This document shows, in pieces, positions 20,500 to 29,442 of a stretch of 29,442 nt of DNA. Position numbers and translations under genes: made by a program. A model generated the notes under the pieces. That model had not been told where the DNA came from and did not search any database. It saw only the letters and a program-made list of their open reading frames with translations. Positions within the stretch are counted from its first letter, which is position 1. Every line of letters begins with the position of its first letter. This stretch comes from a virus, in IMG/VR virus record IMGVR_UViG_3300043436_001503, positions 1-29,442 of that record. One strand, 5' to 3'.

Positions 20500-22410
20500 A
20501 TGATTCTCTGGGTTGATTTTGAGACCCGTAGCGCCTGCGACCTCACGGTCGCGGGCGTTTACAACTATGCGCAGGATTCATGCACAGATGTCTTGTGCAT
20601 GTCCTATGCGTTTAATGACGCGGATGTACAAACTTGGGTGCCGGGCGAGCCGTTCCCCGCCGAAGTAAGAAACCATACCGGCCAGATTCGTGCGCACAAT
20701 GCCACGTTCGAGCGCCTTATCTTCTGGTACGTGCTCGGGCAGAACTTCAAGCTGGAGCAGTTCTATTGCACTGCAACACAAGCCCGCGCCAACTGCGCGC
20801 CCGGCTCGCTTGAAGACGTGGGCCGCTTTGCTGGCGCGTCCATGAAGAAAGACCACCGAGGCGCGCATCTGGTGCGCCAGTGCTGCATGCCGCCGTACAA
20901 CACCGAGCTGCTGCCCGAGTTAATCCAGTATTGCGAGCAGGATGTCCGGGCCATGCGCGTCGTCAGCAAGGGCCTGCGCGACTTGTCAGACGAAGAGCTG
21001 GCCGACTACCATACCAACGAGCGCATCAATGACCGAGGCGTGCTGGTGGACGTTGACTTGTGCAAGGCGGCGATCAAGTATGCGCAGGCTGAGACCGAAG
21101 AGATTCAAAAGATCGTCGCAGAGGTCACCAACGGCGAGATCACATCCGTGCGGTCTTCTAAGATGCGCGAGTGGGTGCTGGCGCGCGTGGGCGAGCGCGC
21201 CAAGAAGCTGATGGTCAAAGACGACAAGTATTCAATCGATAAAAGCGTGCGGGCCAACCTGCTCGCAATGGAGGATCCCGATGAAGTCCCGCCCGACGTG
21301 GCCGAAGTCATTCAATGCGCGGACGACCTCTGGGCGTCTTCGGTTGCGAAGTTCAGTCGCCTCGCACAACTTGCTGATGAAGAGGATGGTCGCGTTCGCG
21401 GAGCCTTCGTCTTTGCCGGAGGAAGTGCCACCGGCCGCGCTAGCTCCTATGGAGCCCAAGTTCACAATTTCACTAGAAAATGCGCCAAAGAACCCGAAGC
21501 TGTTAGAACTGCGATGGTCCGAGGCCATGCAGTTGTGCCACGATTTGGAAAGCGCGTTACAGATGTCCTACGGGGAATGCTCCGGCCCTCACTGATCCCG
21601 GCCAAGGGCAAGAAGTTCGTGGTGGCCGACTGGAGCGCAGTGGAGGCCCGTGTCACGCCTTGGGCCAGTGCCCAGCCGCAAGCGCAGGACGTGCTCGACG
21701 TGTTTCGCGCAGGGCGCGATATCTACATCCGCGAGGCAGCGGGCATCTACCGTATCCCAGAAGATACGATCGGCCCTGAGTCCGACGAGCGCCAAATCGG
21801 CAAGGTGGCCATCCTGTCCCTGGGCTTTGCTGGCGGTGTGGGCGCGTTCGCTGCGATGGGCCGCAACTACGGCATAACCTTACCCGAATCTGACGCCAGA
21901 CGCATCGTGGACGCATGGCGGCGTGCGAACTCCTGGGCCGTGGCCTACTGGCAAAACCTAGAGGAAGCCTACACCCGCGCGATGCGCAATCGTGGGCACG
22001 AGTTCAAGGCGGGTAAGGTAACCTATATGTTCGATGGCCAACACCTTTGGTATTCATTGCCATCGGGCCGCATACTTTGCTATCCATTCGCCCGCCTGGA
22101 AGCCGAGGGCGTGACGTATGCAAAGAGTGCGTGGAAACCCTCAGCCGATGCAAAAGAGTGGCCGCGAGGTCGTCTGTGGAAGGGTCTGGCGTGTGAAAAT
22201 ATCACGCAGGCCACCGCTAACGATCTGCTTCGCCACGCGCTGCGCCAACTCGACGACGTGGTGCTCCACGTTCACGACGAGATCGTCCTCGAAACGAGTG
22301 ATCCAGACGCAGCCGAAAACCTTAAACGTGTGATGTGTACGCCGCCCGCGTGGGCGAGCGATCTGCCCCTGAATGCGGGCGTGAAAACAATGGAGCGATA
22401 CGGCAAATGA
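20500..22410 (+). CDS. DNA polymerase, family A, with 3'-5' exonuclease
   Basis: 636 residues. The exonuclease domain has D6-x-E8 (VDFETRS), N67 (AHNATFERL) and Y144-x3-D148 (YCEQDV). The polymerase domain has motif A with D377 (DWSAVEAR), an O-helix with R431 and K435 (RQIGKVAILSLGFAGG, so Gly-Phe replaces the usual Tyr-Gly), and motif C H592-D593-E594 (VLHVHDEIVLE). It is compact; there is no 5'-3' exonuclease domain. It replicates the phage DNA with the primase-helicase that follows. It starts 2 bases after the upstream stop and its own stop overlaps the next ATG. Confidence 0.95.
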   Translation: MILWVDFETRSACDLTVAGVYNYAQDSCTDVLCMSYAFNDADVQTWVPGEPFPAEVRNHTGQIRAHNATFERLIFWYVLGQNFKLEQFYCTATQARANCAPGSLEDVGRFAGASMKKDHRGAHLVRQCCMPPYNTELLPELIQYCEQDVRAMRVVSKGLRDLSDEELADYHTNERINDRGVLVDVDLCKAAIKYAQAETEEIQKIVAEVTNGEITSVRSSKMREWVLARVGERAKKLMVKDDKYSIDKSVRANLLAMEDPDEVPPDVAEVIQCADDLWASSVAKFSRLAQLADEEDGRVRGAFVFAGGSATGRASSYGAQVHNFTRKCAKEPEAVRTAMVRGHAVVPRFGKRVTDVLRGMLRPSLIPAKGKKFVVADWSAVEARVTPWASAQPQAQDVLDVFRAGRDIYIREAAGIYRIPEDTIGPESDERQIGKVAILSLGFAGGVGAFAAMGRNYGITLPESDARRIVDAWRRANSWAVAYWQNLEEAYTRAMRNRGHEFKAGKVTYMFDGQHLWYSLPSGRILCYPFARLEAEGVTYAKSAWKPSADAKEWPRGRLWKGLACENITQATANDLLRHALRQLDDVVLHVHDEIVLETSDPDAAENLKRVMCTPPAWASDLPLNAGVKTMERYGK

Positions 22411-24644
22411 ACTTTGTGGATTTCATCGCGGGGCTGGCCCCCGAAGGCGAGACAGCTCTCTTCGTGCAACAGAAACTCACCGGAGGCACCTACGCCGACG
22501 GCAAACCGAAGGCGACGTGGCCCGCGTATCTCAAGCCCAGAGGCAAGGGCGCGTGGTTTGGCAACACCGGCAGCTTCATCGTTGATCGCTTCAAAGATGG
22601 CGTGCCCAGCGCGTCTAAAGCAAACTGCGAGTACGTGCTCGTGATGATGCTGGACGACATCGGAACCAAAGCCAAAGAGCCGCCCCTGGCCCCGACGTGG
22701 AAGATCGAAACCTCGCCGGGTAACTTCCAGTGGGGCTACGCCTTTTCTGAGCAGCCGACCAAAGGCGCGTTCGTGGGCGCGATGCTAGCGATTGCCGAGG
22801 CAGGCTACACCGACCCAGGCGCAAGCAATGCCGTGCGCAATTTCCGCTTGCCGGGTTCGGTCAACAACAAACCGAGCGCGGACGGATTCGAGGCGGTGCT
22901 CACGCACTTCGAGCCGAAGGTGGAGTACACGCTGGACGAGATTTGCACCGCCCTGGGCGTGACCCCTTACGAAGACCAAACCGATGTGCTGCGCCCGATC
23001 CGCATGGACGACACGGGCCAAGACGACGTGCTCGCGTGGCTGTCCGAGCAGAACCTCTTGCTGTCGAAACCTAATCACGAAGGCTGGGCGGGTGTCGTGT
23101 GCCCTAACAGCGCGCAGCACACCGACGGCAACGTCGAGGGCCGCTATATGCCCCTGAATCGCGCGTTTTGCTGCTATCACGGCCACTGCACCGAACTGGA
23201 TTCGGGCGTGTTCCTGCAATGGGTGGCCGACAATGGTGGCCCCAAGCACACGCCGGGGCTGCGTGAGGACTTGCTCGTATCGGCAATGGATTCGGCCCTG
23301 TCGAAACTCACGCCAAACGAATCGTTCCCCGACGCCGCTGCCGTGATCGTGGCCGACACCGAGCGCAAGGAACTCGCGCGTTTAGAAAAGGCCGAGTGGT
23401 GGGATCGCTTTGCGTATGTGCAGGAGGATGACGCCTATTTCGACCTTCAGGATCGCCGCGAATTAAGCAGAAGCACCTTCAACGCCCTCTTCCGTCACAT
23501 TGGCTGCAAGTCGATCCACAATGGCCGCAAGATTGAACCCGCGATTAGTTTCGACGAGCAGCGGCAGGCCAAGGGTGCTAAGGCCCTGGTCGGTATCACT
23601 TACGCAGCGGGCCAGGGCGTGACAGTCGCGCGTGAGGGCCATGAGTACGGCAACCGCTGGCGCAATGCCCGCCCGCAGCCCGTGGCTGCTGATGTATCCA
23701 TCTGGCTACGCCATGTTGAGCGCTTGGTTCCCGTTGACTTCGAGCGCGAGCACCTTCTGAACGCCCTGGCGCATAAGGTGCAGTTCCCCGGCCACAAGAT
23801 TAACCACGCGATCCTGATGGGCGGTAACCCGGGCTGTGGTAAGGACACCCTCTTCGCGCCTTTCTTCTGGGCCATCGGTGGGGCGACGAAAACCAACTGC
23901 TCGCTGGTCAAGAACGAAGACATCACCAGCCAGTGGGGCTATTCGCTCGAATGCGAAGTGATGGAGATCGCCGAGCTACGTCAAACTGAAGCTAAGGACC
24001 GCCGCGCGCTAGAAAACCAACTTAAGCCCATCATCGCCGCGCCGCCCGAGTTGCTGCCCGTCAACCGCAAGGGACTGCACCCGTACATGGCCCTGAATCG
24101 CGTGTTCGTGGTGGCATTCTCAAACGAGCGCGCAGCGATCTCGATTCCGTCTGAAGACCGCCGGTGGTTTTGCCTTTGGGCCGACCTGCCGCGTCTGCCT
24201 GAATCGGATGCCGTGGCCCTTTGGAACTGGTACCAGCACCGAGGCGGTTTCGAGGCCGTCGCTGCTTACCTGCACACCCGCGACGTGTCCGCATGGAACC
24301 CGACCGCACCGCCGCCTATGACTGAGGCCAAGGCCATCATGGTCGAACACGGCATGAGCACCGCCGAGTCGATGCTGGTCGATATGATGCAGCGGCGCGT
24401 GGGTGACTTCGCGTCTGGCGTGATCGGCGCGCCCTTCCATGCGCTTTGTGACCGCCTGCAAGCCCACATGCCCGCAGGCGTGAAGGTGCCCCAGGCGGCG
24501 CTGTTCCATGCCCTGAAGGAAGCTGGCTGGGTTGATCGTGGTCGGATCAAGTCCCGCGAGCACATGAACAAAAAGCAGGTGTTCTGCGCGCCGGAACTGT
24601 CGCAGAAATCCGACTCTGATCTGCGTAGGCTGGTTTCGCCGTGA
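22407..24644 (+). CDS. Primase-polymerase (AEP-like) fused to DUF5906-type helicase
   Basis: 745 residues from ATG 22407, which overlaps the polymerase stop as ATGA; an upstream in-frame extension into the polymerase gene is unlikely. Residues 1-190 resemble an archaeo-eukaryotic primase/RepB-primase domain: LVMMLDDIGTK with D83-D84 as metal ligands, then RNFRLPGSVNNKP. At about 231-262 a Cys/His cluster (VCPNSAQHTDG, then CCYHGHC) may bind zinc. The C-terminal helicase has a Walker A at about 472-480 (GGNPGCGKD) and an arginine-rich ATPase domain typical of DUF5906 proteins. The last about 100 residues look like a winged helix. Both priming and unwinding in one chain fits a small phage replisome. 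Confidence 0.9.
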   Translation: MNFVDFIAGLAPEGETALFVQQKLTGGTYADGKPKATWPAYLKPRGKGAWFGNTGSFIVDRFKDGVPSASKANCEYVLVMMLDDIGTKAKEPPLAPTWKIETSPGNFQWGYAFSEQPTKGAFVGAMLAIAEAGYTDPGASNAVRNFRLPGSVNNKPSADGFEAVLTHFEPKVEYTLDEICTALGVTPYEDQTDVLRPIRMDDTGQDDVLAWLSEQNLLLSKPNHEGWAGVVCPNSAQHTDGNVEGRYMPLNRAFCCYHGHCTELDSGVFLQWVADNGGPKHTPGLREDLLVSAMDSALSKLTPNESFPDAAAVIVADTERKELARLEKAEWWDRFAYVQEDDAYFDLQDRRELSRSTFNALFRHIGCKSIHNGRKIEPAISFDEQRQAKGAKALVGITYAAGQGVTVAREGHEYGNRWRNARPQPVAADVSIWLRHVERLVPVDFEREHLLNALAHKVQFPGHKINHAILMGGNPGCGKDTLFAPFFWAIGGATKTNCSLVKNEDITSQWGYSLECEVMEIAELRQTEAKDRRALENQLKPIIAAPPELLPVNRKGLHPYMALNRVFVVAFSNERAAISIPSEDRRWFCLWADLPRLPESDAVALWNWYQHRGGFEAVAAYLHTRDVSAWNPTAPPPMTEAKAIMVEHGMSTAESMLVDMMQRRVGDFASGVIGAPFHALCDRLQAHMPAGVKVPQAALFHALKEAGWVDRGRIKSREHMNKKQVFCAPELSQKSDSDLRRLVSP

Positions 24645-24928
24645 GTCTGAGCAAGAACGACCAGGAGATTGCGCGCATCATCGGCGGTGGCGTGGTCGCT
24701 TACGGTATCCGCGAGGCCCTGGAGATTTATTATCAACTGTGGGCGTTGGGCTATCGCCCAGGCGTGCCGCTGAAGTTCTTCATGCGCCAGTGGGCCAAAA
24801 AGAAGGGACCCCGAAGGGCCCCGAAGGTTTCAGCGATGGCGCCCCAGTATAACCCGGAGCAGGAGGGCGAGGGTGGCGTAGATCATTGTGGGCGGTCCTC
24901 GTCGTCAAAAGCCATATCGGGCGGGTGA
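24641..24928 (+). CDS. Small basic protein with hydrophobic helix (95 aa)
   Basis: A GTG at 24641 overlaps the primase-helicase stop (GTGA). Residues 10-37 are a hydrophobic helix (RIIGGGVVAYGIREALEIYY), followed by KKKGPRRAPK. The last 40 residues are low complexity and overlap both a minus-strand terminator (24797-24822) and the convergent gene at 24883, so the C-terminus may be non-conserved read-through. No family recognised. Confidence 0.6.
   Translation: MSLSKNDQEIARIIGGGVVAYGIREALEIYYQLWALGYRPGVPLKFFMRQWAKKKGPRRAPKVSAMAPQYNPEQEGEGGVDHCGRSSSSKAISGG
24797..24822 (-). terminator. Intrinsic terminator of the minus-strand small-gene cluster
   Basis: On the minus strand GGGGCCC (24822-24816) pairs with GGGTCCC (24811-24805), with one G-U, around a TTCG tetraloop closed by C-G, the very stable cUUCGg form, followed by TTCTTTTT (24804-24797). 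It lies 60 bases after the last stop of the cluster (24883) and inside the C-terminal part of the convergent gene. Confidence 0.85.
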
Positions 24929-27104: not shown

Positions 27105-27138
27105 GCTGCTCTCCTGGTTCGTTGTTGCGATGTCGAGT

Positions 27139-27181
27139 AGTGTAAGCGAATTCCTGTTACCAGGTAAAATAGGTGTTTACC
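27139..27181 (-). promoter_or_regulatory. Candidate promoter of the small-gene cluster with TTACC/GGTAA operator cluster
   Basis: On the minus strand TTTACC (27168-27163) and TACACT (27144-27139) lie 18 bases apart, with 4/6 matches each to the sigma70 boxes, and the first ATG is at 27104. The -35 falls inside operator-like symmetry: TTACC-A-GGTAA is a perfect palindrome (27157-27167) and GGTAAA-N7-TTTACC a second inverted pair (27163-27181). A repressor bound there would cover the -35. Confidence 0.5.
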
Positions 27182-27183
27182 CT

Positions 27184-27400
27184 AGTTTGTGGTCGCGTGT
27201 GGTCGCGTGTGGTCAGGGCGATTGACCACGCGAGCGCCAGCACTGGCGCGGGTTCCGGGCTATGTGGTCATTGTGGTCATAGGTTTACATGTTATAAAAA
27301 ATAATTAATATATATATAGGAGTATGGCGCGCCGCCGCCACGCCCTCCGTTTTGGCGCCAACTGAAAATGGGTGACCATGTGACCATATGACCACAAACT
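27184..27400. repeat. Origin candidate: GTGGTC motifs in inverted order around an AT-rich core
   Basis: GTGGTC stands at 27189, 27199 and 27209 (10-bp spacing), and again at 27264 and 27273; its reverse GACCAC is at 27224 and 27390, with GACCAT at 27374 and 27382. The outer ends form a perfect 11-bp inverted repeat, AGTTTGTGGTC (27184-27194) and GACCACAAACT (27390-27400). Between the arms is an AT-rich stretch (about 27290-27318, 28 of 29 bases A/T) and a perfect 7-bp hairpin GCGCCAG-CA-CTGGCGC (27234-27249). Binding motifs beside an AT-rich core are the usual design of an iteron origin; function is inferred. Confidence 0.5.
27284..27311 (+). promoter_or_regulatory. Candidate plus-strand promoter in the AT-rich core
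   Basis: TTTACA at 27284-27289 (5/6) and TAATAT at 27306-27311 (4/6) are 16 bases apart, or TATATA at 27309-27314 with 19. It points toward the intrinsic terminator at 27415-27447, so any transcript would be about 125-130 bases. A ribosome-like AGGAG and an ATG follow at 27318-27326, opening only a 13-codon frame. Confidence 0.42.
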
Positions 27401-27447
27401 GGGGTAGGCCCCAGATCGCGTCAGATCGGTCTGTAAGCGATTTTTTT
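27399..27447 (+). terminator. Hairpin and intrinsic terminator pair
   Basis: CTGGGG-TAGG-CCCCAG (27399-27414) is a perfect 6-bp hairpin. The next bases form ATCGC/GCGAT (27415-27419, 27437-27441) around an inner CAGA-TCGG-TCTG stem (27422-27433), followed by seven T (27441-27447). The second is a plausible rho-independent terminator reading rightward, where no protein gene precedes it. Confidence 0.6.
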
Positions 27448-27519
27448 CCATCAGGCTACCCTGGCCTGGACCGCCTCGCGTTCGCGTCACCTGGACGTTT
27501 TCGAATACTTTCGTTTAGT

Positions 27520-27577
27520 GCATAAAGAGACGGTTCTTTATGCTACGTATGCGGGTACGTAGTTGCTGCGATGCAAC
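27520..27577. repeat. Three consecutive hairpins with hexaloops
   Basis: Three perfect inverted repeats follow one another directly: GCATAAAGA/TCTTTATGC (27520-27543, loop GACGGT), CTACGTA/TACGTAG (27543-27562, loop TGCGGG) and GTTGC/GCAAC (27562-27577, loop TGCGAT). Stems are 9, 7 and 5 bp and share one base at each junction. All loops are six bases and the last two begin TGCG. No T-run follows, so they are not terminators. A structured RNA or a protein-bound DNA site is possible. Confidence 0.8.
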
Positions 27578-27628
27578 AGGAAGGCTTGCGAGTAGGGCCT
27601 GACAGCACCCGCTCCGCTCCATGCTCCG

Positions 27629-27754
27629 CGCTGTCACCTGCGCGACACGCTGTCACCTGCGCGACACCTTGCTCGAACCTTACAGCCACCAGCCACATGG
27701 CTATCGCGCCCGCTAGCCTCATAGCATTTTTGCTATCGTGTCACCTTGGCGACA
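27629..27754. repeat. Repeats of TGTCACC-type inverted half-sites
   Basis: TGTCACCTGCGCGACA stands at 27632-27647 and 27651-27666 within a 19-bp tandem unit, and TGTCACCTTGGCGACA (two mismatches) at 27739-27754. Each is itself symmetric (TGTC-N8-GACA). A shorter GTCACCTGGAC is at 27486-27496. An ATAGCA-TTTT-TGCTAT hairpin (27721-27736) lies just before the third copy. They look like protein-binding sites. Confidence 0.75.
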
Positions 27755-27775
27755 GTCCCATGCCGCCCGAATGAT

Positions 27776-27896
27776 GTGAGCACTCACTTCGCCTTGTTGT
27801 TAGCGAGCACTCACTTTGCCTAGCTGTTAGTTAGCACTCACTTCGCTTTGAGTTTGTAAGCACTCACTAACATCTTTCAGGAGTGAGCACTTACTA
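27776..27896. repeat. Five iterons with a 26-27 bp period
   Basis: AGCACTCACTT starts at 27779, 27806 and 27833, AGCACTCACTA at 27859 and AGCACTTACTA at 27886: spacings 27, 27, 26 and 27. The first copy is part of the palindrome GTGAG-CA-CTCAC. The bases between copies 1 and 2 are partly conserved (CGCC or TGCC after the core, GTTA before the next). Direct repeats at a near-constant period are typical of a replication-initiator or repressor array. Confidence 0.85.
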
Positions 27897-27962
27897 TGGG
27901 GGGAGGGGGGTCGGGCTACGCTCTAAATTTGACGGTGCCTCCTACCCTCAGAAAAAGGAAAA

Positions 27963-28025
27963 ATAGTCACCAGTCTTATCCGGATAGTCACCAGCTAAAA
28001 ACGAATAGTCGCCAGCCGTAAGAAA
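27963..28025. repeat. Three 21-bp-spaced direct repeats before terS
   Basis: ATAGTCACCAG starts at 27963 and 27984, and ATAGTCGCCAG at 28005: exactly 21 bp apart, two helical turns, so the copies face the same side of the DNA. They end about 45 bases before the terS start. A palindrome TATCCGGATA (27977-27986) lies at the join of copies 1 and 2. Small terminases often bind repeated sites near their own gene, so a packaging site is a good guess. Confidence 0.8.
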
Positions 28026-28060
28026 AAGTAGAATCAGGCAACTTCCCCGAAAGGATAAAA

Positions 28061-28348
28061 GTGAATTTGCCAAAGACGCTACCGAAGACGGACACGATGC
28101 GCTTGAAGGAGTTGAAAGAGCTGCTCCTAAAATCTGGCGGCAAGAGTGTTGTTCAGAAGGTGCTCGACATCGCGATGGATGACGCACATCCCGGACAGAT
28201 GACGGCGCTTAAGATGTGCATGGATCGCACACTGCCCACCAGCTTGTTTGAGAAAGAGAAAGGCGCTCGCAGCGCCGTCACGATCAATATAACTGGATTG
28301 GGCGAACCGCCGACGATCATAGAAGCAAAGGATATAACGGATGTCTGA
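28061..28348 (+). CDS. terS: Putative small terminase subunit
   Basis: 95 residues from a GTG at 28061 with AAGGA five bases before it. The sequence LKELKELLLKSGGKSVVQKV, then DDAHPGQMTALKMCMDRTL and a C-terminal GARSAVTINITGL is familiar from small proteins that lie directly upstream of the large terminase in many phages. It is shorter than typical TerS but fits in position: its end overlaps terL by 8 bases. It is expected to recognise the packaging site, possibly the 21-bp repeats just upstream. Confidence 0.75.
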   Translation: MNLPKTLPKTDTMRLKELKELLLKSGGKSVVQKVLDIAMDDAHPGQMTALKMCMDRTLPTSLFEKEKGARSAVTINITGLGEPPTIIEAKDITDV

Positions 28349-29442
28349 CCTTAACTTCCAGCTTCTGCCCTGGCAGCAGCAGGTCTACTCCGATTCCAGC
28401 CGCTTCAAGGTCATCGCCGCTGGCCGTCGCTGCGGCAAATCCAGACTGGCGGCAACCACTCTGATCATTGAGGCGCTCAAATGCCCGCCGGGGAGTGCGG
28501 TGCTCTACGTCAGTCCCACAATGGGACAGTCCAGGCAGATTATTTGGGACTTGCTGCTGGAGCTGGGCCGCGAGGTGATCTCGGGCAGTCATGTGAACAA
28601 TCTCGACATCACGATGATCAACGGCGCACGCATTTATGTGCGCGGTGCAGACCGCCCGGATACGCTGCGAGGCGTGAGCCTGACCTACGCCGTGCTCGAC
28701 GAGGTGGCTGACATCAAGCCAGAAGCCTGGGAGCAAGTGATTCGAGCATCACTTTCTGACAAAAAGGGCCGGGCGATGTTCATCGGCACGCCAAAAGGCC
28801 GCAATTGGTTCCACGATCTGTGGAAATTAGGCCAAGATGATCAGGACAAGGACTGGAAAAGCTGGCACTTTACGACGAAAGACAACCCGCTCATTGATCC
28901 TGGTGAAATCGAGTCGGCGAAAAAGACGTTGTCCAGCTTCGCCTTCAAGCAGGAATACCTTGCCAGCTTCTCCAACGCCGGTTCGGACATCTTCAAAGAG
29001 GAGTGGATCAAGTACGGCGAGGAACCGCCGCATGGCAGCTACTTCATCGCCGTTGACTTGGCGGGTTTTGAGGAGGTGGCCAAGCAGGCGGCTAACTCCA
29101 AGAAGCGCCTGGACGAGTCGGCCATTGCGATAGTAAAGGTAACTGATGAAGGCAAGTGGTTTGTTAAAGAAATTGAACATGGCCGCTGGGATGTTCGGGA
29201 GACGGCGGCTAAGATTCTGATGAAGATCCGCGACTACCGACCCTTGTCGGTGGGGATCGAGCGGGGGTCGCTCAAGAATGCGGTTTTGCCGTATCTTTCA
29301 GACCTGATGCGAAAGAACAACGTCTACGCGCACATCGCAGATTTGACGCACGGCAACAGAAAGAAGGCAGATCGCATCATTTGGGCGTTGCAAGGACGGT
29401 TTGAGCATGGCAGAATCGTGCTAAATCAGGATGAGGACTGGG
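28341..29442 (+). CDS. terL: Large terminase subunit, truncated at the window edge
   Basis: At least 367 residues, open to the last base. The ATPase half has Walker A GRRCGKS (28-34), Walker B VLDE (118-121) and the coupling motif GTPKG (149-153). The nuclease half begins near residue 234 with D239 (AVDLAG) and E307 (VGIERGS), which match the first two metal-binding acids of the RNase H-like terminase nuclease; the third should lie past the edge. It cuts and pumps DNA into the procapsid. ATG 28341 has AAAGGA before it and overlaps terS by 8 bases. Confidence 0.95.
   Translation, partial: MSDLNFQLLPWQQQVYSDSSRFKVIAAGRRCGKSRLAATTLIIEALKCPPGSAVLYVSPTMGQSRQIIWDLLLELGREVISGSHVNNLDITMINGARIYVRGADRPDTLRGVSLTYAVLDEVADIKPEAWEQVIRASLSDKKGRAMFIGTPKGRNWFHDLWKLGQDDQDKDWKSWHFTTKDNPLIDPGEIESAKKTLSSFAFKQEYLASFSNAGSDIFKEEWIKYGEEPPHGSYFIAVDLAGFEEVAKQAANSKKRLDESAIAIVKVTDEGKWFVKEIEHGRWDVRETAAKILMKIRDYRPLSVGIERGSLKNAVLPYLSDLMRKNNVYAHIADLTHGNRKKADRIIWALQGRFEHGRIVLNQDEDW

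Follow-up and report, generated by a model that had tools for sequence, protein, structure and literature searches.

A compact noncoding segment of an uncultured podovirus-like phage probably combines an iteron-type replication origin, an exchangeable operator-like insert and a packaging site

What does a phage accommodate in almost 1 kb of DNA that carries several families of repeats but no evident gene? The question is raised by positions 27105-28060 of IMGVR_UViG_3300043436_001503, a complete IMG/VR virus record of 29,442 bases, the whole of which was analyzed and is referred to here as the window. The window encodes a P22-like coat protein, a PolA-type DNA polymerase, a primase-SF3 helicase, an SNF2-type helicase and a PD-(D/E)XK nuclease, and ends on the right with a putative small terminase gene and a large terminase gene (Table 1). 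The phage is uncultured and podovirus-like, and DNA-level relatives among phage isolates were not found except for a single 54-base match. The longest open reading frame within 27105-28060 has at most 67 codons and none is gene-like, as a first-pass annotation had also concluded, and Rfam gave no match for the region; it is a genuine noncoding control region. We propose, with a probability of roughly 0.8, that it is a compact control segment in which an origin, an exchangeable operator-like insert and a terminase packaging site together explain the sequence patterns described below.

Table 1. Positions of the elements of the control region and of associated genes in the window
Feature	Position	Strand	Remarks
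Primase-SF3 helicase gene, proposed origin initiator	22335-24644	+	C-terminal ~50 aa co-vary with iterons; residue 743 in wing loop (predicted)
Homologue of the relatives' small origin-adjacent protein, directly after helicase gene	24641-24928	+	hmmsearch E=3.6e-7
Operator-like palindromes TTACCAGGTAA (27157-27167) and AGGTGTTTACCCTAG (27171-27185), leftward early promoter region	27157-27185	.	
Left iteron cluster, TGTGGTC at 27188, 27198, 27208 (10-bp steps)	27188-27214	+	Geometry kept in relatives
Inverted iteron GACCAC	27224-27229	-	
Conserved core CACTGGCGCGGGTTCCGGGCTA (CATGCGGGTTT type in relatives)	27241-27262	+	
Middle iteron pair, TGTGGTC at 27263 and 27272 (9-bp step)	27263-27278	+	
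AT-rich tract AAAAAATAATTAATATATATATAG, candidate DNA-unwinding element	27296-27319	.	AT minimum, conserved
Conserved motif CGTTTTGGCGCCAACTGAAAA, between AT tract and right iterons	27348-27368	+	
Right inverted iteron cluster GACCAT/GACCAT/GACCAC (8-bp steps)	27374-27395	-	
Hairpin triplet, three abutting inverted repeats (27520-27543, 27543-27562, 27562-27577)	27520-27577	.	
TGTC-N8-GACA operator-like sites at 27632, 27651, 27739	27632-27754	.	
Five operator-like sites around AGCACTYACT (27779, 27806, 27833, 27859, 27886), type GTTAGTGAGCACTCACTAAC	27773-27897	.	
Bipartite element: GGGGGGAGGGGGG (27898-27910), TAAATTTGACGGTGCCTCC (27924-27942), GAAAAAG (27951-27957), candidate packaging-initiation site	27898-27957	+	
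Three AATAGTCRCCAG direct repeats, 21 bp apart	27962-28020	+	Absent from L002 (TerS 99% identical)
Putative small terminase subunit gene (95 aa)	28061-28348	+	Assigned by position, directly upstream of terL
Large terminase gene, runs off contig	28341-29442	+	Pfam Terminase_6N E=1.4e-17

Relatives were collected by searching viral contigs with TerS, terL and the helicase, which gave >160 loci, about 50 to 70 of which show the interval; the comparison of blocks took in ~100 related contigs. One apparent relative lacking arrays (L104) was dropped on account of a contig gap in the interval, and another (L106) was a chance match within a protein gene. In a block alignment of the close relatives L002, L004, L005, L007 and L015, the left part is conserved, the middle is variable and the right is nearly invariant, which suggests a division into an iteron origin (27188-27395), a variable palindrome insert (27440-27897) and a rigid bipartite element (27898-27957). 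The first-pass annotation had listed six ordered repeat elements and had supposed that several proteins bind the region. Four of the families lie far above a baseline of 1,000 first-order shuffles and the hairpin triplet is real, but the TTACC/GGTAA family is not enriched; the supposition of several binding proteins gains support from a putative iteron binder, the operator-type arrays and the element next to terS. The most conserved element, the G-run and its downstream partner, had been overlooked.

In the left block, GTGGTC/GACCAC occurs seven times within 27105-28060, compared with 0.4 expected, and none of the 1,000 shuffles reaches seven. These motifs had been described as lying in an inverted frame; the motifs stand, but the arrangement is better described as an iteron origin. 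Multiple short iterons and an AT-rich segment are both present in 27188-27395, and the same genome encodes a proposed initiator in which primase and SF3 helicase domains are combined. Within the 4.8 kb that follow the helicase gene, the AT-rich tract marks the AT minimum, with one G/C in 30 nucleotides. In the general layout, a direct iteron triplet with steps of about 10 bp is followed by a single inverted copy and a core of the CATGCGGGTTT type; a direct pair (8 to 10 bp) comes next, and beyond the AT-rich tract lie two or three further copies, inverted and 8 to 9 bp apart. When this layout was held fixed and the iteron word left free, the window scored 52 and most same-type relatives 36 to 56, whereas 50 shuffled regions reached 31 at most. 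The iteron word itself varies between phages (GTGGTC, GTGGAC, GTAGTCA, GGGTCA, GTGGGYC, AGGGCAA and others) but is identical among the copies within one phage, and such concerted change is expected if a single DNA-binding protein imposes the word. Identification of 27188-27395 as a replication origin is thus well supported by comparative sequence evidence. We note that TGACCCT repeats occur in a similar origin-like layout in L121, L125, L131, L137, L144, L153, L163 and L174; the window helicase has no match in the five members of this group examined (L121, L144, L153, L163 and L174), and another initiator may use their layout.

Which protein would read these words? The primase-SF3 helicase has a DUF5906 domain (E=7.8e-10) and a RepB_primase match scoring below its cut-off, its nearest record is from an uncultured podovirus (49% amino acid identity), and its fold matches include the NrS-1 polymerase (6k9c) and the SaPI PriRep1/SaPI5 primase-helicases (7pds, 7ola). 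We compared two phage groups whose helicases are alike over residues 31-690 and found that in the C-terminal part (residues 736-769) pairs of the same iteron type, with type labels partly assigned by eye, are 16.8 points more identical than pairs of different type, a difference reached by 3 of 1,225 label permutations. The N-terminal part carries no iteron-type signal (-0.1 points, reached by 621 of 1,225 permutations). Two natural swaps illustrate the pattern: the L200 and L201 helicases share 99% identity across residues 30-690, and those of L208 and L221 are 97% identical, but in both pairs the C-termini and the iterons differ (GTAGTCA and GGGTCA in the former, GTGGTC and GTGGAC in the latter). 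Three phages (L206, L219 and L221) joined the comparison after the hypothesis was formed, and all three fit. Residue 743 alone distinguishes the iteron types within each of the two groups (H or Y versus F; L versus Y). L108 is an exception to the C-terminal clustering: it has GTGGTC iterons and a C-terminus otherwise like that of the GTGGAC group, from which it differs at a few residues that include 743 (Y, not F). In the predicted structure, residue 743 lies in the loop of a beta-hairpin that follows a helix-turn-helix, with local confidence >90; judged by its topology, the domain appears winged-helix-like with residue 743 in the wing, and a structure search with the isolated domain returned nothing significant (best E=0.38). 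Taken with the natural swaps, the co-variation suggests that the last ~50 residues set iteron specificity. With a geometry conserved across relatives and this co-variation behind it, the earlier proposal that replication starts in the region is strongly supported.

The likeliest scenario is that the winged-helix-like C-terminal domain binds the hexamer iterons, which flank the AT-rich tract in opposite orientations, and that the helicase loads there as a ring and melts the tract, whereupon replication would begin; binding, melting and the direction of replication are what we infer from the arrangement. SaPI Rep/PriRep1, SaPI5 and SCCmec Cch2, to which the fold matches 7pds and 7ola point, are likewise primase-helicase initiators whose C-terminal domain reads short iterons, and recognition of iterons by this domain is reported for SaPI Rep (PMC7581432). 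In SaPI proper, however, the origin lies directly downstream of rep, whereas the phage origin is about 2.5 to 2.6 kb from the helicase gene, with several genes between, and sits beside terS; the phage lacks SaPI gene content, and here co-variation of the wing extends across many phages. The closest solved structure for the SF3 helicase part is that of the NrS-1 primase-polymerase (6k9c; E=3.1e-10 by profile and 4.8e-12 by fold), which uses two copies of an 8-nucleotide recognition sequence with no iteron array described, unlike the phage. The alpha protein of P4 is a primase-helicase with a C-terminal origin-binding domain and acts at iterons near AT-rich DNA, features that the phage would share, but P4 has ori plus a distant crr and the window phage has a single origin region; sequence and structure searches of the window proteins gave no match to P4 alpha. 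By analogy, the iteron block would work like SaPI and P4 replicons, and as a replicon it is of a kind already known.

The DNA directly left of the iterons has the pattern AGGT-N3-TTWCCCTA in most relatives inspected, and a leftward TTGACA-16-TACAAT promoter matching at 11 of 12 positions is present in L002, L004, L005 and L007; the window has a weak version (8 of 12) whose -35 region is overlapped by a TTACC/GGTAA palindrome. Early transcription from this segment, which had been suggested, is therefore clear as a leftward sigma70-like promoter in four relatives but weak in the window. The accompanying idea of a TTACC/GGTAA operator cluster is not borne out by count (3 versus 1.9 expected, with 314 of 1,000 shuffles reaching 3), although the palindromes do sit in the conserved promoter region, where TTACCAGGTAA and AGGTGTTTACCCTAG may act as operators. 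This proximity also lends itself to other accounts of the hexamers. They adjoin the leftward promoter and could serve a phage transcription factor as operators instead of acting as origin iterons, but co-variation with the helicase C-terminus, an inverted layout around the AT tract and a long conserved core make this improbable. Alternatively, GTGGTC could represent T7-type primase recognition sites of the GGTC family, which it resembles, or chance occurrences in what is mainly a promoter area. This seems very improbable given that all copies shift jointly, whichever way they face and with their spacing kept, to words as unrelated as GTAGTCA, GGGTCA and AGGGCAA, that a fixed GGTC core was not found across relatives, and that the encoded primase is RepB/AEP-like and not of the zinc-binding T7 type.

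At the other end of the segment, the terS-proximal element has the consensus G7-9[A/T]G3-5, then GAAAAAG 39 to 46 nucleotides further on; the stretch separating the two contains TAAAAATT and GGTGCC-CC-CCCTC. All 52 relatives whose terL is preceded by at least 1 kb of sequence carry the G-run element there, the A-run is found 39 to 46 nucleotides downstream of the G-run in 66 of 70, and the element persists in phages such as L010 in which everything else in the interval is different. It was found in no phage isolate by blastn, and SSU5, which is similar in the N-terminal part of terL, has no G-run at its record ends; the putative TerS had no PHROG or Pfam match and no match at all among phage isolates. 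The cos/pac regions of lambda-type phages adjoin terS and similarly place a conserved DNA element shortly upstream of it, although the element here is a G-run plus an A-run at fixed spacing. Because a rigid bipartite element adjoining terS is conserved across terL relatives, it is probably the packaging site, at which terminase would recognize the DNA or initiate packaging. Packaging had been included among the suggested functions of the segment, and this part of the proposal is plausible for the same reasons; contig ends are equivocal, in that a few contigs start 0 to 24 bp before the G-run, but four near-complete contigs, circular by their overlapping ends elsewhere, cross it. A promoter, leader RNA or replication element in place of a packaging site is a rather unlikely though substantial alternative: some phage promoters have G-rich starts and the right part of the element contains a C-rich block, but the element remains beside terS even where all that precedes it is swapped, Rfam gave no match, and A/T changes in the G-run that go unmatched in the C-rich block led us to reject an RNA stem between the two. 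The 21-bp repeats that follow the element were correctly noted at first pass, with AGTCRCCAG occurring three times versus 0.012 expected (0 of 1,000 shuffles reach 3).

Between the origin and the packaging candidate, the insert is a changing collection of palindromes. Perfect inverted repeats number 1.36 per 450 bp in the 450 bp before the G-run versus 0.27 elsewhere in the same loci (about fivefold), and which palindromes occupy the insert differs between phages. The window arrays comprise five TetR-like sites and three TGTC-N8-GACA sites (3 versus 0.004 expected, 0 of 1,000 shuffles reaching 3); the latter are kept in L002 but absent in L005, L007 and L015. GCACTYACT, the center of what were called 27-bp iterons, is likewise enriched (5 versus 0.011 expected, 0 of 1,000 shuffles reaching 5), and the description needs correction only in that there are five copies at steps of 27, 27, 26 and 27. 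These two families and the hairpin triplet were thus rightly singled out at the start; the first two hairpins are kept in L002, and TACGTA-type palindromes are also present in L005 and L135. In L007, five-fold palindromes of the TAGACTGACCAGTCTA type (920-1040) occupy the same slot. The exact 20-mer of the TetR-like palindrome is present in 25 of ~85,000 bacterial and archaeal species genomes, with many matches in promoter position just before an ATG. One of these matches, L312, is itself a phage contig, organized in the same manner but with a different terminase; binned in a betaproteobacterial MAG, it has five TetR-like palindromes, GTGGAY-type repeats and a G-rich element, and its bin is a possible hint to the host.

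Among the relatives, sites of host type recur in this slot. DnaA boxes (TTATCCACA) number 31 in the insert interval versus 1 in 355 kb of flanking sequence, an outer set that is mostly coding DNA, and the concentration extends to Fur sites and to the palindrome TTAGTGAGCGCTCACTAA; in strictly noncoding insert DNA, DnaA boxes occur in 12, Fur cores in 7 and the TetR-like palindrome in 10 of 58 clusters. The motif list was picked after some of the sites had been seen, so that selection bias partly remains even with added control motifs, and 25 of the 32 textbook motifs tested show no significant enrichment in the interval; OxyR and IHF patterns are also enriched but are short or A/T-rich. LexA sites are enriched by count, but four of the six CTGT-N8-ACAG matches share offset and wording within a small-gene frame, leaving two that are noncoding, and the sites were rejected. 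Up to five exact DnaA boxes per phage occur in L144, L153, L163, L174, L137 and L165, in the ~450 bp before the G-run; there they adjoin the terS-proximal element upstream and are practically absent elsewhere in those loci. The window region 27105-28060 itself has no DnaA, Fur or parS site. The insert may be read as optional, rapidly exchanged operator-like palindromes for DNA-binding proteins which, in relatives at least, would be those of the host (DnaA, Fur).

What such arrays might do can be weighed from their neighbors. TerS proteins of lambda-type phages bind repeats, and the arrays (TGTC-N8-GACA, GTTAGTGAGCACTCACTAAC and the 21-bp repeats) adjoin terS, so that they might be TerS-binding sites like lambda cosB. 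Yet L002, L005 and L007, with TerS 93 to 99% identical, have different or no array copies (the 21-bp repeats, for example, are missing from L002), and the same palindromes occur in L312 with its different terminase; a TerS that is nearly the same does not bring the same arrays with it. The arrays are thus not sites that TerS must have, and we regard this role as improbable. A host-responsive late promoter, at which bound host regulators would time transcription of the terminase and late genes, is a tentative possibility at somewhat less than even odds. It would fit the crowding of DnaA, Fur and TetR-type sites just ahead of the terminase genes, and phage use of host regulators has a precedent in CtrA, which times late genes in this way in alphaproteobacterial phages (PMC9437464); however, the stretch from the arrays to terS yielded no consensus sigma70 promoter, and the DnaA boxes and five-copy arrays exceed what a promoter needs. 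More doubtful is a plug-in array of host-regulator sites that either titrates DnaA, Fur, TetR-type and other proteins as phage copies rise or docks them. If titration occurs, host functions would be shut down or rewired as phage copy number climbs; if docking occurs, the docked proteins could switch the genome from replication to packaging; and if the slot is of this plug-in kind, phages would swap in different arrays according to host. CtrA phages (PMC9437464) and GIL01/LexA also carry sites for host DNA-binding proteins, but here several different host-type sites replace one another in a single fixed slot, with the origin on one side and the packaging element on the other, and a limited literature search found no earlier description of a slot with recurring unrelated host-type sites (DnaA, Fur).

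Taking the segment as origin, exchangeable insert and packaging site, what is new is the integration in one segment, a specificity code that appears readable and arrays of host-type sites that can be swapped. A candidate origin and its proposed initiator are now defined for a large phage group for which the phage collection searched gave no isolate close to this phage, and origin, regulator sites and probable packaging signal are united. Iteron words and a ~50-residue protein tail exchanged together constitute a natural data set, which opens the recognition code of self-loading SF3 helicases to direct tests.

The first-pass annotation had regarded a conserved protein gene in this interval as evidence against a control region, and many relatives do have a gene of 65 to 85 aa between the origin and the arrays, which is absent from this spot in the window lineage. 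This does not overturn the reading because the origin and the G-run element flank the gene. One clade has parS (TGTTTCACGTGAAACA) in the interval, but every copy falls within coding sequence, where the small gene specifies its C-terminal tail, and none is noncoding; these were not counted. Exact chromosomal-type parS is found in this tail (NVSRET) in L017, L171, L175, L182 and L186, and variants in L162, L169 and L180, where the variant base is the position that varies in parS; the occurrence may be a coding coincidence. The gene after the helicase is the only significant homologue of the small protein in the window. The family is uncharacterized but conserved (65 to 95 aa, MARPCKxDT...LLAAGxGD) and tied to the origin, being located to its right in about 30 loci.
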